A stretch of DNA of 64,000 bases from Microbacterium sp. MM2322. GTDB taxonomy: Bacteria; Actinomycetota; Actinomycetes; Actinomycetales; Microbacteriaceae. Position 1 is the first letter of the stretch; each line of letters starts with the position of its first letter. The notes beneath the pieces are model-generated. The model was not told where the DNA came from. It made no database searches and was given only the letters and a program-made list of their open reading frames with translations. Both the position numbers and the translations under genes were made by a program. Positions 1,368 through 63,620 of the stretch are shown here, in pieces. Location: the NCBI RefSeq assembly GCF_964186585.1, contig NZ_OZ075067.1:744001-808000 (forward strand), written 5' to 3'.

Positions 1368-2709
1368 CCCCGACGACGGTCTCGCCCTCGCCGAGTACGC
1401 CCCGGGTTCGGCGGCGGTCCTGACGGACCCAGAACGCTGGCCGACGATGGATGCCGCCGGTGCCGCACGCCTCGACCGGTGGCGCCGGCATCCCACCGCC
1501 CCCGACTGGGTGCACGCGACCGGCGACCGGCTGACGGCCGAGATGATCGAACGCACCCGGGTGCCGCTGTCGACGGAAGATTGGCTCGAGGAGCACCTCG
1601 CCACGGCGCGGAACCTGCTCGCGTACCGAGAGCTCGGCGCCCTCCCGACTCTCTCGGACTTCCCGCCGATCACACGGCAGCACCTCGTCGACGACCTCGC
1701 CTCGTTCGTCCCCCTCGACGCCGACCTCGACCGGATGCTGCACGGCACGAGCTCCGGCTCGACCGGTGCTGCACTCCTCATCCCCGACGACGTCGAGGAG
1801 GTCGCCCGCGGGTTTCATCTGATGGTGTCGCTGGTGCGGGCGCAGGGGATCGACTGGGTTCCCGACGACGAGCGGTTCGCCGTGGCATCCGTCGTCTTCC
1901 AGCGTCAAGCGTTCACGTACGTCTCGCTGGTGAGCGGGTTCGCGCACCGAGCGATGGCGCGCCTCAACCTCGACACCGGGGCGTGGCGGACACCGTCGGA
2001 CCGCGCCGCCTTCCTGCGGGATGCCGACCCCCAGGTCATCTCGGGCCACCCGACGAGCCTCGCCGAGCTGTTGAGCCCCGATCTTCGTGGGGCGGTGCGT
2101 CCGCTCGCGCTCTTCTCCAGCGCCATGGCGCTGTCGGCGCCCCTCCGGGCCGACCTCGAGGACGCGTTCGGATGCCCCGTCTTCGACGTCTACGGTCTGC
2201 ACGAGACGCGCCAGATCGCCGTCCGCACCGACGACGGGCCGTTCCGCGTGCTCGATCGGCGGGTGCACGTCGAGATCCTCGACCCCGCCGGCGATGCCCT
2301 CCCGGAAGGTGAGGTGGGCGAGATCACCGTGACGGCGGGGGAGAACCCGCTGCTGCCGCTCGTCCGGTACCGCACGGGAGACATCGGCCGTCTCGTCCGG
2401 CTGGCGGACGACGGCCTCGGGATCGCCGACCTCGAAGGCCGGGAGAACACGGTGTTCCTCGCCGCGGACGGCCGGCGGGTGCCGTGCGTCGACCTCACGC
2501 AACAGCTCCAATCGCACGGCGCGCGGGGGTGGAGCGTCGCTCAGGCCGCCGACGGCAGCGTCGACGCGCAGGTCGTCGGCGGGGATGCCGAGGCCGTCGA
2601 GCGCGCGCTCCGGTCGCTGCTCGATCAGCCCACCGACGTGACGCGACACGAGCGGCTCATCGACCTCGGCGAGGGCAAGCCGCGACGCTACCGCAGCGCC
2701 GCCGGCTGA
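1360..2709 (+). CDS. PaaK-like adenylate-forming enzyme (AMP-binding)
   Basis: The start is the GTG at 1360, inside the preceding gene, with GAGG 7 nt upstream; longer versions of the frame are shadows of the neighbour. The product is about 449 residues. It carries the adenylation P-loop HGTSSGSTG at residues 128-136, a YGLHE segment near 277 that corresponds to the A5 motif, and YRTGD at 337-341 with the ribose-binding Asp. This matches the phenylacetate-CoA ligase (PaaK)/coenzyme F390 synthetase branch of the ANL superfamily, which activates a carboxylate with ATP and passes it to CoA or another acceptor. No phenylacetate pathway gene is nearby. It is coupled to a VWA protein instead, so the substrate may be unusual, possibly protein-linked. 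The adenylation call is firm; the substrate is unknown. Confidence 0.8.
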   Translation: MSDPDDGLALAEYAPGSAAVLTDPERWPTMDAAGAARLDRWRRHPTAPDWVHATGDRLTAEMIERTRVPLSTEDWLEEHLATARNLLAYRELGALPTLSDFPPITRQHLVDDLASFVPLDADLDRMLHGTSSGSTGAALLIPDDVEEVARGFHLMVSLVRAQGIDWVPDDERFAVASVVFQRQAFTYVSLVSGFAHRAMARLNLDTGAWRTPSDRAAFLRDADPQVISGHPTSLAELLSPDLRGAVRPLALFSSAMALSAPLRADLEDAFGCPVFDVYGLHETRQIAVRTDDGPFRVLDRRVHVEILDPAGDALPEGEVGEITVTAGENPLLPLVRYRTGDIGRLVRLADDGLGIADLEGRENTVFLAADGRRVPCVDLTQQLQSHGARGWSVAQAADGSVDAQVVGGDAEAVERALRSLLDQPTDVTRHERLIDLGEGKPRRYRSAAG

Positions 2710-2739
2710 GCGGACCGGGTGCTTCCCAGCCCACTCCAC

Positions 2740-2754
2740 TACGGTGGATAGGTG
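2740..2754 (+). promoter_or_regulatory. -10 box and leaderless start of DEAD-box helicase
   Basis: TACGGT at 2740-2745 is followed by exactly 6 nt and then the GTG start at 2752, with no Shine-Dalgarno. This is the geometry of actinobacterial leaderless transcripts. No convincing -35 is visible. Confidence 0.5.
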
Positions 2755-4560
2755 AGTGACCCCCAGACCCCGACCGAATCCGCTGAAACCCCCGCCCTCC
2801 CCGGCTTCGATGAACTCGGCTTGACCGGTCCCGTCCTCGCCGCCATCAAGGACCTCGGCTACGAGACGCCCTCCGCGATCCAGGCCGCGACGATCCCCGT
2901 CCTTCTCGGCGGCCGCGATGTCGTCGGCATGGCGCAGACCGGTACCGGCAAGACCGCCGCCTTCGCCCTGCCCATCATGGAGAACCTGGACCTGAGCCAG
3001 AAGACCCCGCAGGCCCTCGTGCTCGCCCCCACCCGTGAGCTCGCGCTCCAGGTGTGCGAGGCGTTCGAGTCCTACGCCGCCCGCATGAAGGGCGTCCACG
3101 TCCTCCCCGTCTACGGCGGCCAGGGCTACGGCGTGCAGCTGTCGGCCCTCCGTCGCGGCGTGCACATCGTCGTCGGCACGCCCGGCCGCATCATGGACCA
3201 CCTCGAGAAGGGCACGCTCGACCTCTCGCAGCTCAAGAACCTCGTCCTCGACGAGGCCGACGAGATGCTGAAGATGGGCTTCGCCGAAGACGTCGAGCAG
3301 ATCCTCGCGAAGACGCCCGCCGAGAAGCAGGTCGCCCTGTTCTCCGCGACCATGCCGCCCTCGATCCGCCGCCTCGCGCAGCAGTACCTGCGCGACCCGG
3401 AAGAGATCACCGTCAAGACCAAGACGTCGACGAACGTCAACATCACGCAGCGGTACCTGATCGTGTCGTACCAGCAGAAGGTCGACGCACTCACCCGCAT
3501 CCTCGAAGTCGAAGACTTCGACGGGATGATCATCTTCGTCCGCACGAAGAACGAGACCGAGACGCTCGCCGAGAAGCTCCGCGCCCGCGGGTTCAGCGCG
3601 GCGCCGATCAACGGCGACATCCCGCAGCCCCAGCGAGAGCGGTCGATCTCGCAGCTCAAGGACGGCAAGCTCGACATCCTGGTTGCGACCGACGTCGCCG
3701 CCCGCGGTCTCGACGTGGAGCGCATCAGCCACGTCGTGAACTTCGACATCCCCACCGACACCGAGTCGTACGTGCACCGCATCGGCCGCACGGGTCGCGC
3801 CGGCCGCAAGGGCGACGCGATCAGCTTCGTGACGCCGCGCGAGCGCTACCTGCTCGCGCACATCGAGCGCGCCACCCGTCAGGCTCCCACGCAGATGCAG
3901 CTGCCGACGACCGAGGACATCAACTCGACCCGCCTCGCGCGCTTCGACGATGCGATCACCGCGGCCCTGGGCGAGACCGACCGGATCAACGGCTTCCGCG
4001 ATGTCATCGCCCACTACGTGCGCAACCACGACGTGCCCGAGCAGGACGTCGCCGCAGCCCTCGCCGTCGTCGCGCAGGGCGAGACGCCGCTGCTGCTCGA
4101 CCCCGCCAGCGACCAGCTCGCGAAGGCGCTCGCCGCCGACGCGCAGCGCGGTACCCGCAGCAACGACAAGGGCAGCAGCCGCCCCGAGCGCGCCGACGGC
4201 GGGTCGCGCGAGCGCCGCAGCCGCGGCGACTTCACGACCTACCGCATCGCCGTGGGCCGTCGTCACCGCGTCGAGCCGCGCCAGATCGTCGGTGCGCTGG
4301 CGAACGAGGGCGGCCTCGGCCGCGACGACTTCGGTGCCATCACGATCCGGCCCGACTTCTCGCTCGTCGAACTGCCGACGTCGATGGATGCCTCGGTCCT
4401 CGACCGCCTCAGCGGCACCCGCATCTCGGGTCAGCTGATCGAGATCCGTCCCGACCGCGGCCGTCCCGGTGGCGAGCGCCCGCAGCGCTCGTTCGACGAC
4501 CGACCGAAGCGTTCGTTCGACGACCGTCCTGAGCGCAAGCCCCGCCACGGCCGCGACTGA
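2752..4560 (+). CDS. deaD: DEAD-box ATP-dependent RNA helicase
   Basis: This 602-residue protein unwinds RNA duplexes using ATP in the cytoplasm and is likely to act in ribosome assembly and cold adaptation. A Q motif occupies about residues 19-43, followed by Walker A AQTGTGKT at 61-68, PTREL, DEAD at 167-170, SAT at 198-200, and HRIGRTGRAGR from 343. After the two RecA folds comes a DbpA-type RNA-binding domain at about 495-570, then an Arg/Asp-rich tail with two RSFDDRP repeats. This DEAD core, DbpA domain and basic tail is the actinobacterial DeaD/CsdA arrangement. The GTG start sits 6 nt after a TACGGT box and lacks a ribosome binding site, suggesting a leaderless message. It is not coupled to the genes before it. 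Codon use is strongly biased, as expected for a highly expressed gene. Confidence 0.93.
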   Translation: MSDPQTPTESAETPALPGFDELGLTGPVLAAIKDLGYETPSAIQAATIPVLLGGRDVVGMAQTGTGKTAAFALPIMENLDLSQKTPQALVLAPTRELALQVCEAFESYAARMKGVHVLPVYGGQGYGVQLSALRRGVHIVVGTPGRIMDHLEKGTLDLSQLKNLVLDEADEMLKMGFAEDVEQILAKTPAEKQVALFSATMPPSIRRLAQQYLRDPEEITVKTKTSTNVNITQRYLIVSYQQKVDALTRILEVEDFDGMIIFVRTKNETETLAEKLRARGFSAAPINGDIPQPQRERSISQLKDGKLDILVATDVAARGLDVERISHVVNFDIPTDTESYVHRIGRTGRAGRKGDAISFVTPRERYLLAHIERATRQAPTQMQLPTTEDINSTRLARFDDAITAALGETDRINGFRDVIAHYVRNHDVPEQDVAAALAVVAQGETPLLLDPASDQLAKALAADAQRGTRSNDKGSSRPERADGGSRERRSRGDFTTYRIAVGRRHRVEPRQIVGALANEGGLGRDDFGAITIRPDFSLVELPTSMDASVLDRLSGTRISGQLIEIRPDRGRPGGERPQRSFDDRPKRSFDDRPERKPRHGRD

Positions 4561-4593
4561 CCTCGAGCACGAGACCCCACGTCGATAAACGCG

Positions 4594-4638
4594 ATCCGGG
4601 CCGAGACACGGTGCACATCACCGAGTCCCGGCCCGGAT
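4594..4638. terminator. Two-part hairpin downstream of deaD
   Basis: Bases 4594-4607 pair with 4625-4638 (14 positions, one A/C mismatch). Inside them 4609-4613 pairs with 4619-4623 around the loop CACAT. The structure starts 33 nt after the deaD stop and is followed by TCCGTTTC, not a clean U-tract, so it may terminate weakly or protect the mRNA 3' end. Confidence 0.5.
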
Positions 4639-4700
4639 TCCGTTTCTCGGGGCGCACGGCGGACCGACGTCGCCACCCCCGACCGCGGCATCCGTGGCGG

Positions 4701-4753
4701 GCGGATGCCGCGGCTGACCGCGGGCGGATGCCGCGGCTGACCGCGCGCGGATG
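4701..4753. repeat. 23-bp tandem repeat, about 2.3 copies
   Basis: Units run 4701-4723 and 4724-4746, followed by a partial copy from 4747. Each unit begins GCGGATGCCGCGG. An inverted copy of that core lies just upstream near 4683-4694. Two units do not make a CRISPR array. The core contains the GGATGCC word that is abundant throughout the window. Confidence 0.7.
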
Positions 4754-4824
4754 CAATGGATCCTGGCCGACACGCCGCGCGACGGACCGGTCCGGCGGCG
4801 TGTCGTCGCGGATCCCTTGCATCC
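4749..4824. repeat. 76-bp intergenic inverted repeat
   Basis: The outer arms 4749-4763 and 4810-4824 are complementary over 15 bp with one mismatch. Inside them GACACGCCG near 4768 pairs with CGGCGTGTC near 4796. The element ends 15 bp before the stop codon of the convergent glycosidase gene, so it may terminate that gene, but it has no U-tract and is larger than a usual terminator. Confidence 0.6.
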
Positions 4825-4838
4825 GACGCCGCCGGCCG

Positions 4839-6650
4839 TCAGCTCGTATGGGTCCCCGTGATCGCCGCGCGGATGCGATCGACCGGGATCTTCGGCGTGC
4901 GGTCGGCTGTGACGAGGCCGTTCGTCTCCTGCAGGGTGTCGGCCAACTGCGTGTAGCAGAAGCCCGCGAGAGCATCGCTCGCGTGGACGGCCGCCATGAG
5001 CCCCTCGAAACGCTCGGCGAAATCCTCCGGAGAGGTCGCCGACGAGTACCCCCACGCTCCCTCGGCCGCCGACGTGTCGAACGAGATGCCGCCGAACTCG
5101 GTGAGCATCACCGGCGCATCCGAGACGTCGCCGCTGACGATGAGGGTTCGCCCGCCGGGGCCGACCGTGTCGATGAGGTGACGGATGCCGGCATCCGTCG
5201 CGTATCGCTCCTGCACGACATCGGGGCGCCACTCGTAGTCGTGGATCGCGACGATGTCGGTGTCGACCTGCTCCCACCCGTCGTTCGAGACCACCGGTCT
5301 CGTCGGGTCGAGGGCCTTCGTCAGCGAGACGAGCGCGCGGGCGAAATGCTGCATCCGCGGGTCGGTGGCGATGTGCTGCACGCCCCAGCTCTCGTTGATC
5401 GGCACCCACGTGACGATCGACGGATGCGACATATCGCGGCGGACGACCTCGAGCCACTCGCGCGTCGTGCGCTCGATGGCGGTCTGCGTGAACGTGTAGG
5501 TGCCGGGCGCTTCTCCCCAGACCAGCAGGCCGAGCTGGTCGGCAGCCAGGAGGAAGCGCGGATCCTCGAACTTCTGATGCACGCGGGTTGCGGTGAACCC
5601 CAGCGAACGGATGAGCTCGACCTCATCGCGGAGCGCCCCCGCCGACGGCGCGGCGAGGTGCGACTCGGGCCAGTAGCCCTGATTCAGCACGGAGCGCAGG
5701 TAGTAGGGGCGGTCGTTCAGCCAGAACCGCCCGCGGGCGACGTGGGCGGTGCGGAGGCCGAGGTAGGAATGCACGACGTCGTCACCCACTCGCACCTCGG
5801 CGTCGATGAGCCGCGGGCTCTCGGGCGACCAGAGGAGTTCCTCGTAGGACTGCCCGTTCGCGAGCTCCGCGACGGGGAGGACGATGGTCGACTCGCGCGA
5901 GCCCGCGGTCACCACGGCGTGGGCGAGTCGGGCACCCTCGTAGGCCAGGTCGACCTCGACCTCCGTCCCTGCTGACGGCGCGCCCGACAGTTCGAGGTCG
6001 AGGGTCACGGTTCCCCGTCGCGGGTCGGCCGTCCAGCGGATCGCGCTGACGTGCACATCGGGCACGCTCTCGAGCCACACGGGCTGCCAGATCCCGGACG
6101 TCCGGTGGTACCAGATGGCGTGCGGGTGATCCCGCCAGTCCTGCTTGCCACGGGGCTGCGAGATGTCGGTCGGGTCATCCTCCACGCGGACCACGACGGT
6201 GCGGTCGCCCGCGGCGACGGCCGAGGTGATGTCGAGCGCGAACGGTGTGTGACCGCCCTCGTGGCGCCCCACCGACCGGCCGCCGACCCACACCTCAGAG
6301 CGGTAGTCGACCGCGCCGAAGTGCAGGATCAGGCGTCGGCCGTTCGCGTGCCCCGCGGCGTCGAGGTCGTCGTCGGTGAGGTCGCGGGAGTACCAGAGCA
6401 CGCGGTGCGGCGCGGTGTCGCCGATTCCCGACGCGGTCGACTCGGGTGGGAAGGGGACGACGATCCGATCCGAGCGGATGCCGGTGCGCTCCCAGCCGAG
6501 GCGAGCCCCGGCATCCTCGTCGTCGAATGCGAACCCCCACGTTCCGGAGAGATCCGCCCACGCGGGGCGGACGAGCTGCGGTCGAGGGTAGGAGCCGTCC
6601 TGCGTGCTCGCGCGGAAGGCGACGTCATCGTCGGTCATGCGCACCAGCAT
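4839..6650 (-). CDS. Glycoside hydrolase family 2 (beta-glucuronidase/galactosidase-like)
   Basis: The product is about 603 residues from the ATG at 6650, chosen because CAGG lies 7-9 nt upstream; the ATG at 6638 is a close alternative. Family 2 enzymes hydrolyse terminal beta-galactosides, glucuronides or mannosides with retention. An N-terminal sugar-binding beta domain (about 30-210), an immunoglobulin-like domain (about 210-310) and a C-terminal TIM barrel are recognisable. The acid/base is in PINESWG (Glu about 420) and the nucleophile in TEFGG (Glu about 518). No signal peptide is present, so it acts in the cytoplasm on imported oligosaccharides. At this length it lacks the C-terminal domains of LacZ and is closer in size to beta-glucuronidase. 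It stands alone between two convergent or divergent genes, without a transporter beside it. The substrate cannot be assigned. Confidence 0.88.
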   Translation of the reverse strand: MLVRMTDDDVAFRASTQDGSYPRPQLVRPAWADLSGTWGFAFDDEDAGARLGWERTGIRSDRIVVPFPPESTASGIGDTAPHRVLWYSRDLTDDDLDAAGHANGRRLILHFGAVDYRSEVWVGGRSVGRHEGGHTPFALDITSAVAAGDRTVVVRVEDDPTDISQPRGKQDWRDHPHAIWYHRTSGIWQPVWLESVPDVHVSAIRWTADPRRGTVTLDLELSGAPSAGTEVEVDLAYEGARLAHAVVTAGSRESTIVLPVAELANGQSYEELLWSPESPRLIDAEVRVGDDVVHSYLGLRTAHVARGRFWLNDRPYYLRSVLNQGYWPESHLAAPSAGALRDEVELIRSLGFTATRVHQKFEDPRFLLAADQLGLLVWGEAPGTYTFTQTAIERTTREWLEVVRRDMSHPSIVTWVPINESWGVQHIATDPRMQHFARALVSLTKALDPTRPVVSNDGWEQVDTDIVAIHDYEWRPDVVQERYATDAGIRHLIDTVGPGGRTLIVSGDVSDAPVMLTEFGGISFDTSAAEGAWGYSSATSPEDFAERFEGLMAAVHASDALAGFCYTQLADTLQETNGLVTADRTPKIPVDRIRAAITGTHTS

Positions 6651-6684
6651 GCCCGACCTGACCGCATCCGCGAACACCCCCGAC

Positions 6685-8214
6685 TCACTCGAGGCGGAAC
6701 GCCGCCCAGAGTTCGGCCCGCGCGGCGAACGACCCGAGGTCGGTGCCGAGCGCCTTCTCGGCGGCGGCGAGCCGGGTCCGCACGGTGTGCCGGTGCACGC
6801 CGAGCGCCGCCGCTGCTCGCTCATTCGAGCCGTCCGCCTCGAGCCACGCCCGCAGCGTCTCTTCGAGGCGCCCGCCCGTCTCACGGTCGTGTGCCCGGAG
6901 CGGGGCGAGGTGCGCGGCGGCGACCATCGCGGCATCCCCCGACGACAGGGCCGACAGGATGCCGCCGGTCTGCACCTCCGCGAAGTGCGAGACCCCCGGC
7001 GCCGCAGCGCGGTCGCGCGCCGCGCGGGCCTGTCCGAGGGCGTGGGCGACGTCGGCGTAGCCCGCCGGCTCAGACACGCCGAGCCGCAGGGCGAACCGGG
7101 CCGGGATCTCGTCGAGCATCGTGGCGGCGGAGGCCGGCACCACGATCACGACGTCGTCGTCGAGCGTGCCGTAGACGAGGGCGCCGTGTCGCTCGTCGGC
7201 GCGGAGCTCGAGCACGTCGAGGAGAGCGCCCGTGCGGGGGCCACCGGCATCCGCCACCGCGACGACGATCGGCGCGGGAGGCAACGGACCCCACACGTCG
7301 CGGGAGATCTGCCGGGCGAGCGACGGGTCGCCGGTGAGGAGCGAGCGCACCATCCCCGAGCGGAGCACCGTGCGGGCGCGCGAGAGCCGCTGATGCTGTT
7401 CGAGCGCGAGGCCGGCCATCGCGATGACGGCGGTCACGACGTCGCGACCCGCCTGGTCGAGCTCGCCCGCGGCGATGGCGACGACGCCGTGGAGACTGCC
7501 GCCGCGCCCGAGGGTCTGCAGCGTGAACGCATCGGTGTCGGAGCGAAGAGACGATCCGGCCCGCGCGCCGCGGCGGAGGACCGCGTCCACTTCGGCGCGC
7601 AGCACGGCAGCCGCGTCGGCGGACAGGGTGCCGGAGGGGTGTTCGCGGACGAGCTCGCCGGCCGCGTCGTACATCCCCACCCACGTGTCGAGCTGTCGGG
7701 CGAGTTCGGCGATCGTGGCGTCCAGCCCGTCGGGGCGGAGGGCTGCGAGCGCGATCGCCCGCTGCGCCGACAGCGCCCAACTGCGCCGCGCGTAGGCCTG
7801 CGCGGCGACGGCTTCGGCGTTCGCGCGGGCGACGGCGATGAACGGCGTGCTGTACGGCACCTCGAACAGCGGCAGGTGCGCGCTGCGGCACGCTGCGGCC
7901 AGGCCCGGCGGGATGCCGTCGCGCACCACCTCGGTCCCGAAACCCAGGGCCGCGACCCCGCGGTCGACGAGCCGCTTCACGTAGGTCTCGAAGGGGTACC
8001 GCGCTCCCGCGGGGAACTGCGTCCCCGTCGTGAGGAGCACGAGGTCCTCGGCGAGGAACGGGGTGGGGTCATCGAGATCGGAACTGTGCACCCAGCGCGT
8101 CGGGCGGTCGAGCGCAGCCGGCGGCAGATCCGCTTCCTCGCCGTCGAGGCGCAGCTGCAGTTCGCGCCGGCCGAGGAGCGCGCGAAGGGTGGGGCCGGCA
8201 TCCCGTGTGACCAC
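6685..8214 (-). CDS. PucR-family transcriptional regulator
   Basis: The GTG at 8214 is preceded by GAGAGGAGCG, a good ribosome binding site; the long upstream frame is a shadow of gabT. The product is about 509 residues. The N-terminal third has the PucR sensory-domain pattern (LLTTGTQFP, FGTEVVRDGIPP), the middle is a GGDEF-like/CdaR-type region, and residues 463-490 form the C-terminal PucR helix-turn-helix with GVHRHTVRTRL. PucR proteins are usually activators of nitrogen or amine catabolism that respond to the pathway substrate. It is divergent from gabT with 96 bp between the start codons, where a perfect 14-bp palindrome lies, so control of the GABA/putrescine genes and possibly itself is likely. 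The ligand, perhaps GABA or putrescine, is inferred from context only. Confidence 0.88.
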   Translation of the reverse strand: MVTRDAGPTLRALLGRRELQLRLDGEEADLPPAALDRPTRWVHSSDLDDPTPFLAEDLVLLTTGTQFPAGARYPFETYVKRLVDRGVAALGFGTEVVRDGIPPGLAAACRSAHLPLFEVPYSTPFIAVARANAEAVAAQAYARRSWALSAQRAIALAALRPDGLDATIAELARQLDTWVGMYDAAGELVREHPSGTLSADAAAVLRAEVDAVLRRGARAGSSLRSDTDAFTLQTLGRGGSLHGVVAIAAGELDQAGRDVVTAVIAMAGLALEQHQRLSRARTVLRSGMVRSLLTGDPSLARQISRDVWGPLPPAPIVVAVADAGGPRTGALLDVLELRADERHGALVYGTLDDDVVIVVPASAATMLDEIPARFALRLGVSEPAGYADVAHALGQARAARDRAAAPGVSHFAEVQTGGILSALSSGDAAMVAAAHLAPLRAHDRETGGRLEETLRAWLEADGSNERAAAALGVHRHTVRTRLAAAEKALGTDLGSFAARAELWAAFRLE

Positions 8215-8229
8215 ACCCGCTCCTCTCTG

Positions 8230-8250
8230 TTGTACGCGCTGTACAGCGCT
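8230..8250. promoter_or_regulatory. Candidate PucR operator
   Basis: GCGCTGTACAGCGC at 8236-8249 is a perfect 14-bp palindrome. An extra TGTAC half-site at 8231-8235 gives two direct TGTAC copies 9 bp apart. It sits between the divergent PucR and gabT genes, upstream of the gabT -10 box. Confidence 0.5.
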
Positions 8251-8276
8251 GAGCTGAGAATAGACGCCTCGGCGAG

Positions 8277-8313
8277 TGACCGCACGCCCGTGCGCCCCTA
8301 CGCTCGCCGCATG
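8277..8313 (+). promoter_or_regulatory. gabT promoter, leaderless
   Basis: TGACCG at 8277-8282 and TACGCT at 8299-8304 are separated by 16 nt, and the ATG at 8311 follows after 6 nt. There is no Shine-Dalgarno, so the transcript probably starts at or next to the ATG. Confidence 0.5.
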
Positions 8314-9669: not shown

Positions 9670-9671
9670 TC

Positions 9672-13385: not shown

Positions 13386-13402
13386 CCCGAAGGAGCTCGA
13401 CG

Positions 13403-52790: not shown

Positions 52791-52976
52791 GGGTGGCCTC
52801 GTCGGTCGGGTGGGGAGGGCGCGGGCGCGCTCCGTCGATTCTATTCGGCCGCATCTTGAGGCGGTCTGGATGCCGCCCGGGGAGAGGTTGTTCATAGGCA
52901 GTCGTGATGAGAGACGGTCGCGGGCGCACCGCGCAAGGGGGATGTCGTCGGGGGACGCGTCGGACAGGATGAACCC

Positions 52977-53630: not shown

Positions 53631-53638
53631 GCGGCATG
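53623..53638 (+). promoter_or_regulatory. -10 box near the HerA-like start
   Basis: TAGGCT at 53623-53628 lies 7 nt before the ATG at 53636, and no Shine-Dalgarno is seen. This gene may have its own leaderless transcript although it follows the PAP2 gene closely. Confidence 0.4.
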
Positions 53639-55483: not shown

Positions 55484-56082
55484 CCGCTTCCCGCATCCGT
55501 CCGTTCCGCCCCGGCGACGAACCCGCGCTCGCCGAGATCTGCTTGCGCACTGCGGATGCCGGGGGCGACGGGACCGGCATCTTCGAGGACGACGCCATCT
55601 GGGCCCACATCTGGGTGCTGCCCTACGCCGAACGTCACCCTGATCTCGCCTTCGTCGTGGAGGAGGAGGACGGCACGGTGTCGGGATACGTCGTCGGGAC
55701 CCCCGACACCGACGCGTTCGAGCAGTGGTTCCGGGACGAATGGTGGCCGCGGCACGCCCACAAGTGGCCGAAGCCTGAGAAGGAGATCACCCGTCAGGAC
55801 GGGACGCTCCTCTACGCCTACGGGCGCGGTGAGAAGCCCGAGCCGTTCGCGGCCGAGTTCCCCGCGCACCTGCACATCGACCTGCTTCCGCAGGCTCAGG
55901 GCAAGGGCGCGGGGCGGCGCCTCATCGAGACCCTCTTCGCCGCGCTCCGCGAGCGGGGCGTGCGCGGTCTCCACCTCGTCGCCTCGGCGGAGAACACCGG
56001 CGCGATGGCGTTCTACACGCGTCTCGGTTTCGCGCCGCTGCCGTCCTCGCCGGGGTCTCGCGCCTACGGCATCCCGCTATGA
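55480..56082 (+). CDS. GNAT-family acetyltransferase
   Basis: The 200-residue product has the GNAT core. IRPFRPGDEPALAEICLRTA is the first strand-helix unit, and LPQAQGKGAGRRLIETLF supplies the acetyl-CoA pyrophosphate-binding loop. GAMAFYTRLGF is the last motif. The segment between (DAFEQWFRDEWWP) resembles O-GlcNAcase-type acetyltransferase domains. The ATG overlaps the HerA-like stop by 4 nt. Its own stop overlaps the convergent transporter stop by 6 nt. The substrate is unknown. Confidence 0.88.
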   Translation: MTASRIRPFRPGDEPALAEICLRTADAGGDGTGIFEDDAIWAHIWVLPYAERHPDLAFVVEEEDGTVSGYVVGTPDTDAFEQWFRDEWWPRHAHKWPKPEKEITRQDGTLLYAYGRGEKPEPFAAEFPAHLHIDLLPQAQGKGAGRRLIETLFAALRERGVRGLHLVASAENTGAMAFYTRLGFAPLPSSPGSRAYGIPL

Positions 56083-57597
56083 CCGGTGGACGGGGATGGG
56101 CATCGTCGACGTGTCGATGAGCGGGTCCTCGTCCTGGCGGGCGACCACCTCGAGGGCTTCCTCCCGCGTCTCGACCGTCGGAACCGATCCGAGCAGCGGC
56201 CGCTTCGCGGTCTCCTTCATCGACAGCAGGGCGATGCCGCCGAGCGCGGCGAAGAACATGATGTAGAACGCCGGCATGAAGGTGTTGCCGGTGAGTTTGA
56301 TGAGCGCCTGACTGAACAGCGGCGTCGTGCCGCCGAACAGGGACACCGAGACGTTGTAGGCGATCGCCATGGCCCCGAAGCGGGATGCCGTCGGGAACAG
56401 CGCGGGCAGGGTCGACGCCGACACGGCGACATAGAACGCGACAGGGATCGCGACCATCGCCAGCGCCACGAACACAGCCCACTCCTCACCGATCTGCATG
56501 ATGGCGAACGCGGGGATCATCAGGACGATCGTCGATCCCGCGGCGATCATGTACACGGGGCGACGGCCGATGCGGTCGCTCAGGCGGCCGATGAACGGCA
56601 GGCAGACCGACATGACGAGGAGCACGGGGACGGTCGCGACCGCGGCGCCGAGGTTCGAGACACCGACCTCCTCCTCGAGGTACGTCGGCATGTAGCTCGT
56701 GAGCGCGTACCCCGCGGTGTTCGTCGCGGCGACGATCGCGATGCCGATGAGCACTTCGCGCCAGTGGTGACGGAGGATGCCGCCGATGCCGTGGCGGGCG
56801 AGCGGGTCGTCGCGGTCCGCGTCGAGATTGGACTCGGCCTCCTCGTCCGCCGCGTTCTCGTAGGCGGGGGTCTCGGGGATCTTGAGGCGGAACCAGATCG
56901 CAACGATGCCGAGCGGGATGGCGACGAGGAACGGGATGCGCCAGCCGAAGTCGACCATGGCGGTGTCGCCCCAGATCGACTCGGTGATGATCGTGGTCAG
57001 AGCGACGACCGAGGCGCCGGCGGCGAAGCCGACGTACGAGCCGAGATCGAGCCACGACGACCAGAAGCCGCGCCGCTTGTCGGGCGAGAACTCCGCGACG
57101 TAGGTGGTGGCGCCGGCGTACTCGCCGCCGGTCGAGAAGCCCTGGACCATTTTGAGGAGGTAGAGCGGCGCGATCGCCCACAGGCCGATCTGCTGGCTCG
57201 TGGGAAGGACGCCGATGAGTGCCGTGGCGAGAGCCATCATCGCCATCGTGAAGAACAGCACCTTCTGGCGCCCGATGCGGTCGCCGAGGGGCCCGAGCAC
57301 GAGTCCGCCGATCGGGCGGACGAGGAACGAGATCGCGAAGCCGAAGAGAGCGGCCAGCAGATTCCACGGTTCGGGGAGATCCGCGGTGAACACGGCCGAG
57401 ATCGTGACGGCGAGGTAGCCGTAGATCCCGAAGTCGAACCACTCCATGAAGTTGCCGACCACGGTGCCGCCGATGGCGGTGCGGACACGCTTGGTGTCGA
57501 CCACGATGACGTCGTCGACATCGAGGCGGGGCGGTGGCGAAGAGCGGGTCACAGCGTCGGAGGACGGGGGTACCGGGGGACGGGATGACCTGGCCAT
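56077..57597 (-). CDS. MFS transporter, MHS (metabolite:proton symporter) type
   Basis: The 506-residue product has about 12 membrane segments and the MHS family signatures: GNFMEWFDFGIYGYLA near the N-terminus, FSTGGEYAGATTYVAE, and GRLSDRIGRRPVY. Members such as ProP and KgtP import proline, betaine, 2-oxoglutarate or similar solutes with protons. The ATG at 57597 lies 6 nt after a TACCGT box; GGAGAG between the two could also serve as a ribosome binding site. It is monocistronic and divergent from the SDR gene. The substrate cannot be assigned. Confidence 0.9.
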   Translation of the reverse strand: MARSSRPPVPPSSDAVTRSSPPPRLDVDDVIVVDTKRVRTAIGGTVVGNFMEWFDFGIYGYLAVTISAVFTADLPEPWNLLAALFGFAISFLVRPIGGLVLGPLGDRIGRQKVLFFTMAMMALATALIGVLPTSQQIGLWAIAPLYLLKMVQGFSTGGEYAGATTYVAEFSPDKRRGFWSSWLDLGSYVGFAAGASVVALTTIITESIWGDTAMVDFGWRIPFLVAIPLGIVAIWFRLKIPETPAYENAADEEAESNLDADRDDPLARHGIGGILRHHWREVLIGIAIVAATNTAGYALTSYMPTYLEEEVGVSNLGAAVATVPVLLVMSVCLPFIGRLSDRIGRRPVYMIAAGSTIVLMIPAFAIMQIGEEWAVFVALAMVAIPVAFYVAVSASTLPALFPTASRFGAMAIAYNVSVSLFGGTTPLFSQALIKLTGNTFMPAFYIMFFAALGGIALLSMKETAKRPLLGSVPTVETREEALEVVARQDEDPLIDTSTMPIPVHRS

Positions 57598-57609
57598 CTC
57601 TCCACGGTA
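57598..57609 (-). promoter_or_regulatory. -10 box of MHS transporter gene
   Basis: On the minus strand TACCGT (57604-57609) is followed by GGAGAG and the ATG at 57597. The 6-nt spacing matches the leaderless pattern seen elsewhere in the window. Confidence 0.4.
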
Positions 57610-57698
57610 CGAAGCGGCGCGCAACATCGCACCTCGGCGGTGTGTCTCTTGACAAACCCGGGATGCTGCGCAGTGGTCGCCGCCTTCCGGGGGCGGTC

Positions 57699-57713
57699 TA
57701 TGGTGACGGAATG
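57699..57713 (+). promoter_or_regulatory. -10 box and leaderless start of SDR gene
   Basis: TATGGT at 57699-57704 is followed by 6 nt and the ATG at 57711. A TTGACA at 57649-57654 is too far upstream for this box and may belong to a second promoter. Confidence 0.45.
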
Positions 57714-59249
57714 AGCGAGCTCTCCGCCCCCACCGGCCGTGAACCGGCCCTCGTCGCGCGACCCCGTCCCGACGGGTCGGCGCCCCGAGCGCTCGTCCTC
57801 GGCGCCACGGGATACCTCGGTGGACGCCTCGTTCCCCGCCTCCTGTCGGCGGGCTACCGGGTGCGTGTGCTCGTGCGGACTCCAGCGCGCGTCGCGGCGT
57901 TCGTCTGGGGGAGCGAGGTCGAGGTCGTCGAGGGCGCTGCCGAAGACGCGGATGCCGTGGCCCAGGCGGTCGAGGACGTCGACATGCTCTACTACCTCGT
58001 CCACTCGATGGGCGGCGGCGCCGACTTCGAGTCGAAGGACCTCCGCGCCGCCGAGACGGTCGCCGATGCGGCGGCCGCGGCATCCGTCGGTCGGATCGTG
58101 TACCTCGGTGGACTGCACCCGGCCGGCGTGGCACTGAGCCCGCACCTGCGATCGCGGGTCGAGGTCGGCGAGGTGCTGCTGCAGAGCGGCGCGCCCACTC
58201 TCGTGCTGCAGGCAGGGGTCGTGATCGGGTCGGGCTCCGCGTCGTTCGAGATGGTCCGCCACCTCACCGACGTGCTGCCGTACATGCCCGCGCCGAAGTG
58301 GGTGCGCAACCGCATCCAGCCGATCGCCGTCCGCGACGTCCTTCACTACCTGCTCGCCGCGGCGCAAGTCGACCCGGAGGTCAACCGGGCCGTCGACATC
58401 GGCGGACCCGACGTGCTGCGGTACGGCCAGATGATGAACGGGTACGCCGTGGAGGCGGGACTCCGGCAGCGCGCGATCGCGCCGCTTCCCGTCCTGACTC
58501 CCGGACTCGCGTCGCACTGGGTGAACCTCGTGACCCCCGTGCCGCGGTCGATCGCACGGCCGCTCATCGCGTCGCTGCAGAACGAGTGCATCATGGACGA
58601 CCACGACGTCGACGACCTGCTGCCTCGGCCCGAAGGCGGGCTCACGTCGTACCGCGAGTCGGTGCGCCTGGCGCTTCGCAAGGTCGAAGCCGACGCCGTC
58701 GAGACGAGCTGGCAGGACGCCGAGGTCTCGTCGGTGCCGAGCGACCCGCTGCCGAGCGACCCCGAGTGGGCGGGCCGCCTCGTCTTCACCGACACGCAGA
58801 CCGCGACGACGTCGGCGACCCCCGAACAGCTGTGGCGCGTCATCGTCGGCATCGGCGGCGAGAACGGCTGGTACTCGTCGCCGTTCCTCTGGGCCGTCCG
58901 CGGCTGGATGGACCGTCTCGTGGGCGGTGTCGGCCTGCAGCGAGGCCGCCGGAGTCGCGGCAAGGTCGCCGCGGGCGACGCGATCGACTTCTGGCGCGTC
59001 GAGGCGGTCGAAGAGGGCCACCTCCTCCGCCTGCGCGCGGAGATGAAGGTGCCCGGGCTCGCGTGGCTGGAGCTGCGGGCGAGTCCCGAGGGCTCAGGAT
59101 CGCGCTACGACCAGCGCGCCGTGTTCTTCCCGACCGGTCTCGCCGGGCGCCTCTACTGGTTCGCGGTGCTCCCGTTCCACGGCTTCATCTTCCAGGGCAT
59201 GGCGAACCGCATCGCCGCCGCGGCGGAACGCGAGGCGCCCACCGCCTGA
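57711..59249 (+). CDS. SDR-family NAD(P)-binding protein with DUF2867 domain
   Basis: The 512-residue product is a fusion. Residues about 22-310 are an atypical short-chain dehydrogenase with the nucleotide-binding LVLGATGYLGGRLVPRL and, instead of the catalytic YxxxK, a YYLVHSMGG segment. Residues about 350-505 are a DUF2867 domain (START-like lipid-binding type), with WRVIVGIGGENGWY and FPTGLAGRLYWFAVLPFHGF. This architecture is common in actinobacteria. The final hydrophobic patch may contact membrane. The reaction is unknown; lipid or quinone handling is a guess. Confidence 0.88.
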   Translation: MSELSAPTGREPALVARPRPDGSAPRALVLGATGYLGGRLVPRLLSAGYRVRVLVRTPARVAAFVWGSEVEVVEGAAEDADAVAQAVEDVDMLYYLVHSMGGGADFESKDLRAAETVADAAAAASVGRIVYLGGLHPAGVALSPHLRSRVEVGEVLLQSGAPTLVLQAGVVIGSGSASFEMVRHLTDVLPYMPAPKWVRNRIQPIAVRDVLHYLLAAAQVDPEVNRAVDIGGPDVLRYGQMMNGYAVEAGLRQRAIAPLPVLTPGLASHWVNLVTPVPRSIARPLIASLQNECIMDDHDVDDLLPRPEGGLTSYRESVRLALRKVEADAVETSWQDAEVSSVPSDPLPSDPEWAGRLVFTDTQTATTSATPEQLWRVIVGIGGENGWYSSPFLWAVRGWMDRLVGGVGLQRGRRSRGKVAAGDAIDFWRVEAVEEGHLLRLRAEMKVPGLAWLELRASPEGSGSRYDQRAVFFPTGLAGRLYWFAVLPFHGFIFQGMANRIAAAAEREAPTA

Positions 59250-59258
59250 CACGTCTCG

Positions 59259-60926
59259 TCAGGCGGCATCCGTGATGCGGCCGTTCGCGACGCGCGCCGT
59301 GCGATCGACGAGGGATGCCGGGAGCTCCGCGTGCGAGATGAGCACGACGGCGTGCGAGGCGTCGACGGCGCCGAGCAGGTCGGTGAGGAGCGCGTCGGCC
59401 GCGGCCGGGTCGACCCCGGCGGTCGGCTCGTCGAGGATCAGGACGGTGAAGCCGCGCAGGAGCGCACGCGCGAGCGAGATGCGCTGCGCCTGACCACCGG
59501 AGACGAGCGAGCCGCGCTCGCCGACGCGCGCGTCGAGCCCGCCCCGGGCCCGCAGCCAGCCGCCCAGCCCGACCCGTTCCAGAACCCGCTCGAGGTCGTC
59601 GTCGGTCGCGGTGTCGCGTGCGAAGAGCAGGTTCTGGCGGATGTCCTCGTCGAAGAGCATCGGATGCTGCTCGCACAGCCCGACCGTCAGTCTGAGGTCG
59701 TCGGGGGCGATCGTCTCGACGGGGCGACCCCCGATCGTGTACTCGCCGTTCACTGCGAGGAACCGGACGAGGGCGTGGGCGAGGGTGGATTTGCCCGCCC
59801 CGCTCGCACCGACGACGTGCAGGCGCTCGCCGGGACGGAGGTCCAGGTCGACGCCGGTGAGAGCGGGATGCGTGGCACCCGGCCAGGTGACGTCGACTCC
59901 GCGCAGTCGCAGACCGTCGCCGAGCGCGGGTGCCTCGCCGGTCGGCGTGCCCGTGGGCGGGATCTCGGCCGGGACCGTCGCGGGCACCACCGAGGCCACA
60001 CGGGATGCCGCGGCGCGCACCTGCCGCCACGCGGACGCCGCGAGCGGCACCGCAGCGAAGACCTCGAACACGGCCATCGGGACGAGGACGGCGACTCCGA
60101 GCGCGGGACCGGTGATCGAGCCGGCGGCGGCGGCCGGTGCGGCGACGAGGACGGCGGCGACGGTCGCGACTCCGGCGGCGAGTGAGACGAGTGCTGCCGT
60201 CCCCGCCTGCGCGCCCGCGCGGCGGAGCACCGCGCGGCGGAGAGCGGCATCCGCCTCGCAGACTGCGGCACGTGATGCGGTCTCCGCGCCGAAAGCCACC
60301 AGCACGTCGAGGCGCGACAGGTGGTCGAGCACGGCGTCGCGGAGCCGTGCCCGCAGCGGAGCGATCGAGCGTTCCGCGCGCGCGCCCGCTACCCATCCCC
60401 AGGCGAGCGCGGCGATGCCGGCGACGATCAGGCACCCGAGCAGGGTGAGCGCGGCCGGCCACCACACGAGCGCGACGAGGACGACCGCTCCGATCGCGAC
60501 GGTGGCGGAGGATGCGAGGGGGAGGATGACTCGGAGGGGCAGATTCTGGAGCTCGTCGATGTCGTCGACGAGCGCGGCCGAGGCGGCGCCACGCGACGAC
60601 GACGCCAGCCCGGCGGGAGCGTGCGGGAGCAGACGGCGCACCAGGTCGGTGCGGGTCGCCGCGAGCTGACGGAGGACCGCGTCGTGACTCGCGAGACGCT
60701 CGGTGTAGCGGAACACGGCACGCGAGAGCGCGAACGCGCGGACTCCGACGACGGCCGCTGCGACGTACATCACGAGGGGCTGCTCTGAGGCGCGGACGAT
60801 GAGCCACGCGCTGACGGCGAGGAGCGCCACCGCCGACGCCTCGGATAGGAACCCGGACGCGAGAGCCCGCCAGAACCGGCGCGGCGGAGGGACGGAGGCG
60901 CGGAGGACGTCGGCGGTCGTCGTCAT
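59259..60926 (-). CDS. cydC: Thiol reductant ABC exporter subunit CydC
   Basis: The 555-residue product has six membrane helices and an ATPase domain with Walker A GASGAGKST (K379), signature SGGQAQRISLARAL and Walker B VLILDEPTAGVD. CydDC exports glutathione-like thiols or haem-related compounds and is required to assemble cytochrome bd. The ATG overlaps the cydD stop by 4 nt, with GGAGGTGAGGG upstream. It is the last gene of cydABDC and ends 9 bp from the stop of the convergent SDR gene. Confidence 0.95.
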   Translation of the reverse strand: MTTTADVLRASVPPPRRFWRALASGFLSEASAVALLAVSAWLIVRASEQPLVMYVAAAVVGVRAFALSRAVFRYTERLASHDAVLRQLAATRTDLVRRLLPHAPAGLASSSRGAASAALVDDIDELQNLPLRVILPLASSATVAIGAVVLVALVWWPAALTLLGCLIVAGIAALAWGWVAGARAERSIAPLRARLRDAVLDHLSRLDVLVAFGAETASRAAVCEADAALRRAVLRRAGAQAGTAALVSLAAGVATVAAVLVAAPAAAAGSITGPALGVAVLVPMAVFEVFAAVPLAASAWRQVRAAASRVASVVPATVPAEIPPTGTPTGEAPALGDGLRLRGVDVTWPGATHPALTGVDLDLRPGERLHVVGASGAGKSTLAHALVRFLAVNGEYTIGGRPVETIAPDDLRLTVGLCEQHPMLFDEDIRQNLLFARDTATDDDLERVLERVGLGGWLRARGGLDARVGERGSLVSGGQAQRISLARALLRGFTVLILDEPTAGVDPAAADALLTDLLGAVDASHAVVLISHAELPASLVDRTARVANGRITDAA

Positions 60927-62563
60927 GCCCTCACCTCCGCGCCGCTCAGGCGGACGACCCGGTCGGCGATCGCTCGGGCGCTCTCGCGGTGGGAGACCAG
61001 GAGGATCAGGGCCCCGGCATCCGCCACGGATCGGAGCGACTGCCAGAGGTGGTCTTCCGCGGCGGCGTCGAGGGCCGCCGAGGGCTCATCGAGCGCGAGG
61101 ACGGGCGCGTGCCCGCGCAGGTGACGCGCGAGGGCGCGGGCGACGGCGACGCGCTGCGCCTGGCCGCCCGACAGGCCGGCTCCCTGGACTCCCAGCATCC
61201 GCTCGGGGTCGACGTCGTCGAGACCCACGAGGTCGAGCACTCGCGCGACGATCTCGGCGGGCATGTCGCCGTCGCCGAGGGAGATGTTCGCAGTGATCGT
61301 GCCCGACGCGAGCCCCGGGCGCTGCCCCGCCCACGCCAGCCACGTGGACGGCGGGCGGGAGGTGGCATCCGCTCCGTCGAACTCGATGCGGCCGGTCGCG
61401 GGCGCGGCGCCGAGGAGCGCCTGCAGCAGGCTCGACTTGCCGGCGCCGCTCGGGCCTTCGATGAGCACGATCTCGCCCGAGCGGGCCTCGAGGTCGACCG
61501 GGGGAAGCTCGCGCACGCGGACGCCGTCGAGCCGCAGCCGGTGATCCGCCCCCGAAGCGGCCGTCGCCGTCGGCGGGGGCGGGACGGATGCCGCGGCTGC
61601 CTCGTCGAGCACGGCGAAGACGTCGCGCGTGGCGGCGACCCCTTCGCTCGACGCGTGGAACTGCACACCGACCTGGCGGATCGGGAGGAACGCCTCGGGG
61701 GCGAGGAGCAGGACGAACAGACCGACGCTCAGGGTGAGCGAGCCGTCGATCAGGCGGAACCCGATCGCGACGGCGACGATCGCGACCGAGATCGAGGCGA
61801 GGAACTCCAGCGCGAATCCGGAGAGGAAGGAGACGCGCAGCACCGTCATCGTCTCGCGACGGTAGTCGTCGGTCACCCGCTCGATCGAGTCGGCGGCGCG
61901 ACGCTGCCGGCCGAAGACCGTGAGGGTCGACAGCCCCGCAACCGTCTCTGAGAACCGGGTCGCGAGTCGGGTGAGGGTCTCCCACTGGCGGCGCTGCACC
62001 GAGCGGGTCGCCAGACCGATGAGGATCATGAAGATCGGGATGAGGGGCAGGGTGAGGGCAACGGTGAGCCCGGAGATCGCGTCGGCCTGCCACATGACCG
62101 CGATGAGGAGGGGCGTTGCGATCACGGTCTGCACCAGCTGGGGAAGGTACCGACCGACGTAGGGCTCGAGTGCGTCGAGTCCGCGGCCCGCGACGAGGGC
62201 GAGGTGCGACGTGCTGCGGGTCGCCATCCACCCCGGGCCGAGCCGTGCGATGCCGTCGAGCACCGCCGCGCGCAGCTGCGACTCGACGCGGGCCGAGGCG
62301 CGCGCCGCGACCCGTTCGCGCAGGAGCGACAGCAGGGACCGGGCGACCACGACGGCGGTCAGCGCGACGAGCGTGCCGGTGAGATCGGCGCCCGCGATGG
62401 CGTCGACGATCGCGCGCGTCGTGAAGAACGCGAAGCCCACGATCGCCGCCGTCTGCGCGATCGAGAGGACCGCGATGACGACGAAGAACGATCGGGATGC
62501 CGCCGCGTACCGCCACAGGCGAGGGTCCACCGGCGGCTGCCGGGGTTCGACCTCAGGAGCCAT
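60923..62563 (-). CDS. cydD: Thiol reductant ABC exporter subunit CydD
   Basis: I start at the ATG at 62563, with GGGAGG 9-10 nt upstream (546 residues); the ATG at 62605 would overlap cydB. Six membrane helices are followed by Walker A GPSGAGKSS (K376), signature LSGGQAQR and Walker B VLALDEPSAALD. It forms a heterodimer with CydC and is needed for cytochrome bd maturation. It lies 22 nt after cydB. Confidence 0.95.
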   Translation of the reverse strand: MAPEVEPRQPPVDPRLWRYAAASRSFFVVIAVLSIAQTAAIVGFAFFTTRAIVDAIAGADLTGTLVALTAVVVARSLLSLLRERVAARASARVESQLRAAVLDGIARLGPGWMATRSTSHLALVAGRGLDALEPYVGRYLPQLVQTVIATPLLIAVMWQADAISGLTVALTLPLIPIFMILIGLATRSVQRRQWETLTRLATRFSETVAGLSTLTVFGRQRRAADSIERVTDDYRRETMTVLRVSFLSGFALEFLASISVAIVAVAIGFRLIDGSLTLSVGLFVLLLAPEAFLPIRQVGVQFHASSEGVAATRDVFAVLDEAAAASVPPPPTATAASGADHRLRLDGVRVRELPPVDLEARSGEIVLIEGPSGAGKSSLLQALLGAAPATGRIEFDGADATSRPPSTWLAWAGQRPGLASGTITANISLGDGDMPAEIVARVLDLVGLDDVDPERMLGVQGAGLSGGQAQRVAVARALARHLRGHAPVLALDEPSAALDAAAEDHLWQSLRSVADAGALILLVSHRESARAIADRVVRLSGAEVRA

Positions 62564-62585
62564 GGATCGATCCTCCCCCGCTCGC

Positions 62586-63620
62586 TCAGTGAGCGGGCGC
62601 GGCATCCGCCTTCTCGATCTGGACGCGGGTGATGCGCTTGCGGAAGACCCAGTAGGTCCAGGCCTGGTAGGCGAGGATCCCCGGCACGAAGATGACCGCC
62701 GCCCAGGTCATGACGCCGAGCGTGTAGTCGGTGCTCGAGGCGTTCTCGATCGTGAGGGAGAACGCGGGGTCGGTCGACGACGGCATCACGTACGGGAAGA
62801 GGGCGAACCAGAGCATCAGGACCGCGGTGACGATCGTGACCGCGCCGAGCGCGAACGCCCAGCCGTCGCGACGGCGGAGGTTGGCGACCGCCGACCCGAG
62901 AAGAGCCAGCGCGGCGAGGGCGCCGCATCCGATCACCACCGCCAGCAGCGGGGCGTCGCGGTCCATCGCGATGACGGTCGTCCAGACGACCGTGCCGGCC
63001 GCGAACGCGATCGCCGGGAACGCGACCCGCTGGGCCAGGCGGTGCGCGTCGTCCTTCACCCGGCCGTCGGCCTTCAGCCCGACGAAGTACAGGCCGTGCA
63101 GGAAGAAGAGGAGGAGCGTCGTGACACCGACGCAGAGGGCGTAGGGGTTCAGGAGCGTCAGGAGCGAGCCGGTGACGTTCTTGTCGGCGTCGATCGGGAC
63201 GCCCTGCACGATGTTGCCGAAGGCGACACCCCAGAGGAGGGCCGGGATGACCGACCCGATCACGATCATCCGGTCGAACCCGCGCTTCCACGCGAGCCCC
63301 TCGCGCTGGTGGCGGTACTCGAACGAGACGCCGCGGAGGATCAGGGCGAGGAGGATCAGCAGCAATGGCAGGTAGAAGCCGCTGAACAGGGTCGCGTACC
63401 ACTCGGGGAACGCGGCGAACAGGCAGGCGCCGGCCACGATGACCCAGGTCTCGTTGAGGTCCCACACGGGGCCGATGGTGTTGATGACCTGGCGGCGCGA
63501 CACTTCATCTCGGCCGAGGAACGGCAGGCTCATCCCGACGCCGAAGTCGAACCCGTCGAGCACGAAGTAGCCGACGAAGAACACACCGACGATGAAGAAC
63601 CAGAGGTAGGCGAGATCCAT
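62586..63620 (-). CDS. cydB: Cytochrome bd oxidase subunit II
   Basis: The 344-residue product has about eight or nine membrane segments. The N-terminus YLWFFIVGVFFVGYFVLDGF is the CydB signature, with VINTIGPVWDLNETWVI next. CydB supports the three haems held by CydA in the oxygen-reducing quinol oxidase. AGGAG lies upstream of the ATG at 63620. The gene follows cydA with a 9-nt gap. Confidence 0.97.
   Translation of the reverse strand: MDLAYLWFFIVGVFFVGYFVLDGFDFGVGMSLPFLGRDEVSRRQVINTIGPVWDLNETWVIVAGACLFAAFPEWYATLFSGFYLPLLLILLALILRGVSFEYRHQREGLAWKRGFDRMIVIGSVIPALLWGVAFGNIVQGVPIDADKNVTGSLLTLLNPYALCVGVTTLLLFFLHGLYFVGLKADGRVKDDAHRLAQRVAFPAIAFAAGTVVWTTVIAMDRDAPLLAVVIGCGALAALALLGSAVANLRRRDGWAFALGAVTIVTAVLMLWFALFPYVMPSSTDPAFSLTIENASSTDYTLGVMTWAAVIFVPGILAYQAWTYWVFRKRITRVQIEKADAAPAH

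Follow-up and report, generated by a model that had tools for sequence, protein, structure and literature searches.

The stretch of DNA considered here, 64,000 nucleotides of Microbacterium sp. MM2322 (the window; positions 744001-808000 of the single 3,085,801-base contig of genome G000), carries a strongly over-represented short word, GGATGCC or its complement GGCATCC, whose extended core is GGATGCCG (often CGGATGCCG) and which is very probably a DNA uptake sequence, that is, a 'self' tag for natural transformation. This interpretation, already put forward in an earlier note made from the letters of the window, draws on the shortness of the word, its presence on both strands and in all frames, its pairing in hairpins, its lack of clear excess in phage DNA, its retention in close relatives and turnover in distant ones, and the existence of dialects with a shared part. 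It withstood the tests of strand skew, codon-pair bias and intergenic excess by which the earlier note had thought it might fail, and the dialects, the phage result and the presence of ComEA, ComEC and Tad proteins add support. A wider claim is also likely, if held with less assurance: that the word represents a third uptake-sequence system, independent of those of the Neisseriaceae and Pasteurellaceae, the first in Gram-positive bacteria, read by a Tad/Flp pilus, spread over many genera, with at least seven dialects in Microbacterium (one arisen twice), and partly isolating species. G000 is the window's own genome, and the other G, g and f labels denote genomes, genera and families of the scans.

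GGATGC and GCATCC were found 160 times in the window (81 and 79), against 64.9 expected from an order-2 Markov model, and the heptamer 107 times against 18.8, distributed over both strands (Table 1). The earlier counts of about 150 hexamers and over 100 heptamers were thus right, and all 16 example coordinates that were checked lay no more than 7 bases from a word. Of the window copies, 85% have G as the eighth base, which gives the extended core, and about half are preceded by C. In the window, one-base neighbours of GGATGCCG occur at 0 to 1.9 times expectation for changes in positions 1-5 and at 1.0 to 4.4 times for changes in the last three positions. A maximum-order Markov model expects 80.7 heptamers and nearly hides the excess, because the sub-words are inflated too. 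Beyond the core the flanks are nearly free of information, with only weak preferences within 20 bases and no AT-richness, and an interspersed repeat of the repetitive extragenic palindrome or miniature inverted-repeat transposable element type was rejected on this ground.

The whole genome contains 5,353 copies of GGATGCC (2,725 forward and 2,628 reverse), about 17 times the number of the reversed control word (133 and 175 by strand, 308 together). In a sample of 1.664 Mb, made up of the window and 80 stretches of 20 kb, GGATGCCG has the highest z score of all 8-mers (2,471 copies against 353 expected from an order-3 Markov model, z 113). Across 16 bins of 200 kb the density of words ranges from 1.3 to 2.2 per kb and no strand skew is seen, the largest imbalance being 76 to 59; this balance was measured by bins and not from a located origin. 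Chi, FtsK-orienting polar sequences (KOPS) and similar polar motifs were rejected on the same balance, with the same proviso on the origin.

Genes were called on the sample by our own procedure (1,526 genes, 87.8% coding), and 40 within-gene shuffles served as a synonymous null. Coding sequences hold 2,484 copies of the 7-mer, against 658 +/- 23 after shuffling, and 2,088 of the 8-mer, against 371 +/- 19. The earlier note had seen the word in more than one reading frame; in fact all six frames are in excess over the synonymous shuffles, from 1.6 times (GGC ATC C) to 21 times (G GCA TCC) for the 7-mer and from 2.5 to 33 times for the 8-mer. Codon-pair counts were also preserved in a Markov model at the codon level. 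This model, which yields an expectation rather than a literal shuffle and does not keep the proteins, expects 1,284 coding 7-mers (a 1.9-fold excess) and 775 8-mers (2.7-fold), again with an excess in each frame; the pair counts that it uses themselves contain part of the word's signal. Per kb, there are 1.70 words in coding DNA and 1.97, 2.10 and 3.69 in co-directional, divergent and convergent intergenic DNA, respectively. Between genes the 7-mer reaches 8 to 11 times its order-2 expectation, with 90 copies against 8.1 expected in convergent spacers, and there the word also forms inverted pairs in hairpins.

A bias in codon pairs or amino acids (Asp-Ala as GAT GCC, Ala-Ser as GCA TCC) might be thought to produce the word by itself. 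Three frames do hold 2,255 of the 2,484 coding copies (1034, 621 and 600), keeping all codon pairs lifts the expectation from 658 to 1,284, and a background of 1.3 to 3.4 times the control exists in the first 21 genomes outside the family. Nevertheless, every frame is in excess under both models, intergenic DNA is as dense in words as coding DNA or denser, congeners have different words, and, as the earlier note had remarked, the word in frame uses rarer codons (GAT is 18% of Asp and GCA 8% of Ala). Taken with the synonymous shuffles, these results led to the rejection of codon or codon-pair bias as the main cause, and we regard it as scarcely credible. The likelihoods given here and below to rival explanations overlap one another and do not add up to one. 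Words are fewer in the sixth of genes most strongly biased in codon use, at 1.07 per kb against 1.55-2.05 in the other five sixths, which agrees with the earlier remark that the word is scarce in translation genes. In the window itself that remark is broadly right, if not without exception: the genes read as secE, L11, L10 and L7/L12 have no words, and deaD, nusG and L1 have one each.

A protein of the window has its closest relatives, at 88-93% identity and in five loci, in four M. oleivorans records and in Microbacterium sp. 11MF, which places the window's organism in the M. oleivorans clade. Retention was followed in 21.8 kb of the window, a single region with 27 words, against five loci of this clade, which are not independent of one another. 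At 85.5-89% nucleotide identity, 24, 23, 20, 18 and 15 of the 27 8-mers are intact (56-89%), as compared with 37, 40, 36, 35 and 31% of control 8-mers of the same composition at the same loci. In four distant congeners (77-79% identity) that are similarly rich in words, 1 of 18, 3 of 18, 1 of 16 and 0 of 3 sites are shared, at or below the control level of 16-21%. Sites thus persist in the short term and give way to others in the long term, with density kept. In 103.7 kb from five Microbacterium phage records (one whole, four pieces of 14 kb, the hosts' own words not being determined), the 7-mer shows no clear excess, with 30 copies against 26.4 expected (0.29 per kb), and the 8-mer occurs 15 times against about 10.4; one piece (L228) has five GGATGCCG against 1.3 expected.

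GGATGCC is present in all 149 genomes of the genus, in 434 to 9,877 copies, and 128 have at least 2,000. Congeners poor in this word carry other abundant words, as detected by comparing k-mers in 14-100 kb of each genome and in pooled named loci. All of these words contain GGA, usually CGGA, and the remainder varies (Table 1); those built on CCGGATG, CGGATGCGG and CGGATGCTG rest on 14-60 kb per genome. Whole-genome counts of CGGATCC, which include the palindrome CGGATCCG on both strands, exceed 4,000 in seven of the 149 genomes (4,115-9,980; G103 included) and lie between 283 and 1,674 in the other 142; the same seven are poor in GGATGCC (434-1,441). CGGAACCA occurs 2,917 times in G118, balanced between strands, and 62-201 times in 20 other genomes, and GGATGGCC 1,938 times in G032 and 1,388 in G038, as compared with 39-278 in 19 others. 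A matrix of seven words by 25 groups has a high diagonal (2.7 to 17.7 times expected), with cross-signals of up to 5.3 times, on small counts, among the genomes of GGATGCCG, GGATGCGG and GGATGCTG; in G061, G089, G097 and G199 none of the seven words is high.

The dialects were placed on a ComEC tree of 42 congeners, a single-gene tree of a protein that may itself have been transferred, with labels that were drawn, in most low-count genomes, from k-mer samples and otherwise from counts of GGATGCC over the whole genome (G004 was labelled with the common word despite its low count of 2,384). The common word extends over the whole tree and the other dialects form small groups within it. Twelve changes are needed to account for the eight labels (counting 'no clear word' as one of them), where the minimum is 7 and the mean of shuffled labels 19.3. 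The dialects CGGATGGCC, CCGGATG and CGGATGCTG each occupy one side of a branch, and CGGATGCGG does not. For CGGATCC two changes are forced by well-supported branches, which are most simply read, by parsimony on this one tree, as two gains.

Retention, phage DNA and dialects bear on two further explanations. A sequence-specific mutation or repair drive, such as very-short-patch repair tied to a DNA methyltransferase, would be symmetric between strands, would be confined neither to particular frames nor to genes, and could switch the word from species to species with a change of enzyme. Retention above controls in close relatives would, however, need a strong and continuous drive, known drives of this type give mild excesses, and no clear excess is found in phages, although their time in the host is short; we consider such a drive quite improbable. 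Equally, the word could be a binding site for a nucleoid, segregation or replication protein, a signal of genome architecture to which the spread over all 16 bins and the retained sites would be suited. The lack of strand skew sets it apart from signals like KOPS or Chi, and with each of the 12 label changes thousands of sites would have had to be replaced without any bias of transfer, which makes this explanation, too, very improbable, and marginally more so than a drive. The word overlaps recognition sites of known restriction enzymes; such sites tend to be avoided, not enriched, and a restriction-site reading was set aside for this reason.

Beyond the genus, many genera of the family share the word, which is what the comparison of relatives suggested in the earlier note has brought out. 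The family scan covered 249 genomes of 85 genera, 84 of them outside Microbacterium and judged by one genome each. Against the reversed control, 32 of these 84 stand at 7 times or more, 17 at 5 to 7 times and 35 below 5 times, over a range from 0.9 times (g52) to 25 times (g58). The order scan covered 198 genomes, and the first 21 of those outside the family reach 1.3 to 3.4 times control (median 2.1). Because of this low level outside, the strong GGATGCC excess is a feature of the family, whose weaker members overlap the background. Higher values outside the family were seen in f4 (g88 up to 6.6 times, g105 up to 4.6 times) and, near 3.9 times, in single genomes; f4 may represent a further lineage that uses this word or one akin to it. 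In named loci of 9-22 kb, the words per kb are 0.9-2.0 in many Microbacterium, 0.8-1.4 in Salinibacterium and 1.05-1.4 in Agromyces, and 0.2-0.6 in M. azadirachtae and some others.

The search for competence and pilus genes that had been proposed for this genome found ComEA, ComEC and a Tad/Flp operon. In G000, comEA (184 aa, with a helix-hairpin-helix part) adjoins comEC (742 aa) at 1312364-1315227. The tad operon (871402-874112) encodes TadA (TIGR03819, above cut-off), a 276-aa protein read as TadB/C and an Flp-like pilin, neither with an NCBIfam match, and two TadE-type proteins (NF041390 and TIGR03816); by eye the pilin is like the Micrococcus luteus Flp printed in PMC6370729. The reading frames of comEA, comEC and tad are open. 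Within the genus, 147 of 149 genomes have a ComEC; the two in which it was missed are 72 and 77% complete. ComEA was matched at 37 of 42 comEC loci and in all 26 genomes searched (19 over cut-off); of the five remaining loci, four (G142, G034, G126 and G002) have comEA further off and that of G022 is short. TadA was matched in all 28 genomes searched (17 over cut-off). Ten of 13 tad loci come from word-bearing genomes and all ten have TadB/C, Flp, TadE and TadF (TadF of G118 by eye). The other three come from genomes without a clear word: those of G089 and G061 have all parts matched, and that of G097 (C1:1368001-1372500; L254) is truncated, flp breaking off in its helix with no TadE or TadF seen within 4.5 kb.

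The uptake-sequence reading suggests the following mechanism. A surface protein, most likely a Tad/Flp minor pilin, would bind tagged DNA and the pilus would then retract; ComEA would take the duplex, ComEC would pass one strand in, and homologous recombination would copy the tag-bearing allele. Under such a bias tags would accumulate where the sequence is free, at synonymous positions, between genes and in hairpin stems, and a change of receptor specificity would replace one tag by another, creating dialects able to isolate species. A Tad minor pilin would be the first candidate for the reader; the 13 tad loci are too few for a co-evolution test of these pilins. A type IVa pilus was rejected as the general machine, PilT passing the cut-off in 39 of 149 genomes. 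PilT-type ATPases are patchy in the genus (G097 C1:161990-163015 is one example) and occur in word-rich and word-poor genomes alike.

Several observations speak against this reading. G000 is among the genomes without PilT over cut-off. Thirty-five of the 84 other genera, those below 5 times control, overlap with what other families show as background. In g52 (G199 and G268), where GGATGCC is not enriched, there is a ComEC, and TadA and ComEA are matched below their cut-offs; small genomes in which the excess is slight likewise have matches of the ComEC, TadA and ComEA types. The machinery therefore does not predict the word. ComEA was rejected as the reader of dialects, since an alignment of 37 ComEA proteins shows no dialect pattern by eye. 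No clear own word was detected in G061, G089 and G097 (60 kb each), G004 (20 kb) or G109 (16 kb). The matches listed in a limited literature search include no report of transformation in Microbacterium. Finally, the earlier note had taken excess on both strands together with inverted pairs in terminators for the hallmark of uptake sequences. Such pairs are indeed present in hairpins, but they are weaker evidence than was thought: when a word is enriched, its presence in one stem arm entails its complement in the opposite arm, and the pairs are thus not diagnostic.

The word may also be a relic of an earlier competent ancestor, a tag now out of use, which would have the same origin as a working uptake sequence and differ from it in present use only. 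In some congeners comEC looks cut or split, and a congener without a clear word, G097, has the truncated tad operon; on the other hand, words are kept above controls in the window's clade, the comEA, comEC and tad frames of G000 are open, and most genomes of the genus sample have high counts. A relic is thus unlikely. The altered comEC genes may reflect mobile elements that target comEC. The comEA of G142 (C2:119408-168383) lies 48 kb from a ComEC without its N-terminal part, and the 9.5 kb upstream of this remnant have four CCGGATG as compared with 16 in the next 10.4 kb. G144 (C13:37273-53944) has two ComEC pieces 16 kb apart, the ComEC match of G033 (C26) is without its first 29 positions, and G128 (C1:1692529-1712352) has an extra 5' comEC fragment 19 kb from a full copy. 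In G034, G126 and G002, comEA is found 6-13 kb from comEC. Expression of comEC was raised in a Microbacterium under stress resembling drying, according to PMC5177630.

The best-described uptake sequences are those of two Gram-negative families. According to PMC3630211 and PMC12616744, the DNA uptake sequence (DUS) of the Neisseriaceae occurs in thousands of genic and intergenic copies with inverted pairs linked to terminators, and its dialects, which follow phylogeny, have a core in common and vary at some of the positions around it. The Microbacterium word likewise is a short word over-represented on both strands in coding and non-coding DNA, forms (as the common word) inverted pairs in predicted terminators, and has dialects around a shared part, here GGA, with C in front in about half of the common-word copies. 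Unlike DUS, GGATGCCG lacks a CTG core on either strand and has the shared GGA, usually CGGA, instead; the host is a high-G+C Gram-positive; G000 has a Tad operon and no PilT over cut-off (ComP was not sought); and one dialect arose, by parsimony on one gene tree, twice within one genus. The uptake signal sequence (USS) of the Pasteurellaceae is described in PMC12616744 as abundant, with two dialects, inverted pairs in terminators and a predicted minor pilin as receptor. Abundance, dialects, inverted pairs in predicted terminators and a minor pilin as candidate receptor are shared with USS, whereas the USS core, AAGTGCGGT or ACAAGCGGT, is not the top word here (GGATGCCG is) and AT-rich flanking segments are absent. 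The word is also denser, at 1,485 GGATGCCG per Mb (2,471 in 1.664 Mb) against the 500-800 Hin-USS per Mb given there. Words, pilus and phylum differ, and the Microbacterium word is a member of neither DUS nor USS.

Micrococcus luteus, of another family of the order, is transformable and like G000 has comEA, comEC and a tad operon. The review PMC6370729 reports comEA and comEC in M. luteus and the need of Flp pili for its transformation, and a term search of PMC4322843, on M. luteus, did not return 'uptake sequence', in contrast to the case here. No report of an uptake sequence in actinobacteria was found among the matches listed (titles and beginnings of abstracts in the open-licence literature), and an earlier description elsewhere is possible. 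If the interpretation is true, a third case, in another phylum and dependent on another pilus, would mark the self-tagging of DNA as something that evolves again and again. Natural competence would then be expected in much of a large bacterial family, whose members could be transformed with the help of a practical tag. With its many sequenced species and several dialects, the genus would also make it possible to test directly how receptor and word evolve together, a question that is open for USS.

The three terminator-like hairpins with the word in both arms described in the earlier note are strong folds (Table 1), and for each none of 200 shuffles folds as well. By our own gene calls all three sit between convergent genes, and their T runs are weak. 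Among intergenic word pairs of the 1.66-Mb sample with starts at most 30 bases apart, 35 have GGATGCC first and its complement second (+-), 6 are -+, 3 ++ and 3 --; coding pairs number 50, 25, 5 and 11 in the same four orders. Close inverted intergenic pairs fit terminators, a role that is predicted from sequence. An inverted pair of the own dialect is visible in a hairpin of G050 as well. The repeats noticed near 4683-4753 do contain the word, in copies carried by a tandem repeat at 4697-4754.

Table 1. Word copies, pairs and hairpins in the window, and other dialects in Microbacterium genomes.
Feature	Position or genomes	Strand	Remarks
GGATGCC/GGCATCC copies	791..62607	both (53 +, 54 -)	91 of 107 as 8-mer GGATGCCG; 18 intergenic by own gene calls
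Hairpin, inverted pair 17829 (-) / 17840 (+)	17817..17858	+	convergent genes; 19-bp stem, -44 kcal/mol, z -10.7
Hairpin after gene read as L7/L12, inverted pair 46217 (+) / 46226 (-)	46205..46244	+	-38.2 kcal/mol, z -7.6
Hairpin between convergent genes, inverted pair 51355 (+) / 51372 (-)	51345..51388	+	-38.2 kcal/mol, z -6.8
Three words, 4687 (-), 4703 (+), 4726 (+)	4687..4754	both	two within 23-bp tandem repeat (4697-4754) downstream of deaD
Intergenic pair 43849 (-) / 43868 (+)	43849..43874	both	
Overlapping inverted pair GGATGCCGGCATCC	5183..5196	both	inside coding gene (own gene calls)
Two adjoining direct copies GGATGCCGGATGCC	13653..13666	+	inside coding gene (own gene calls)
Dialect CGGATCCG	G148, G043, G057, G064, G111, G115, named M. 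azadirachtae group		G115 from 3.8 kb, then whole genome
Dialect CGGAACCA	G118		
Dialect CGGATGGCC	G032; weaker in G038		
Dialect CCGGATG	G026, G142		samples
Dialect CGGATGCGG	G035, G136, probably G123 (14 kb)		samples
Dialect CGGATGCTG	G050, G140		samples

Among minor observations, about 10-11 repetitions of words around TGTAGCAGC were seen in the 60-kb sample of G061, where they probably form a local repeat family, and in G199 (80 kb sampled) neither an own word nor a high word in the matrix was found. The longest stretch free of words in the G000 sample (C1:551391-558638) measures 7.2 kb at 61% G+C and is perhaps foreign DNA. Another 8-mer of this sample, CAGCCTAG/CTAGGCTG, occurs 28 times against 1.9 expected.

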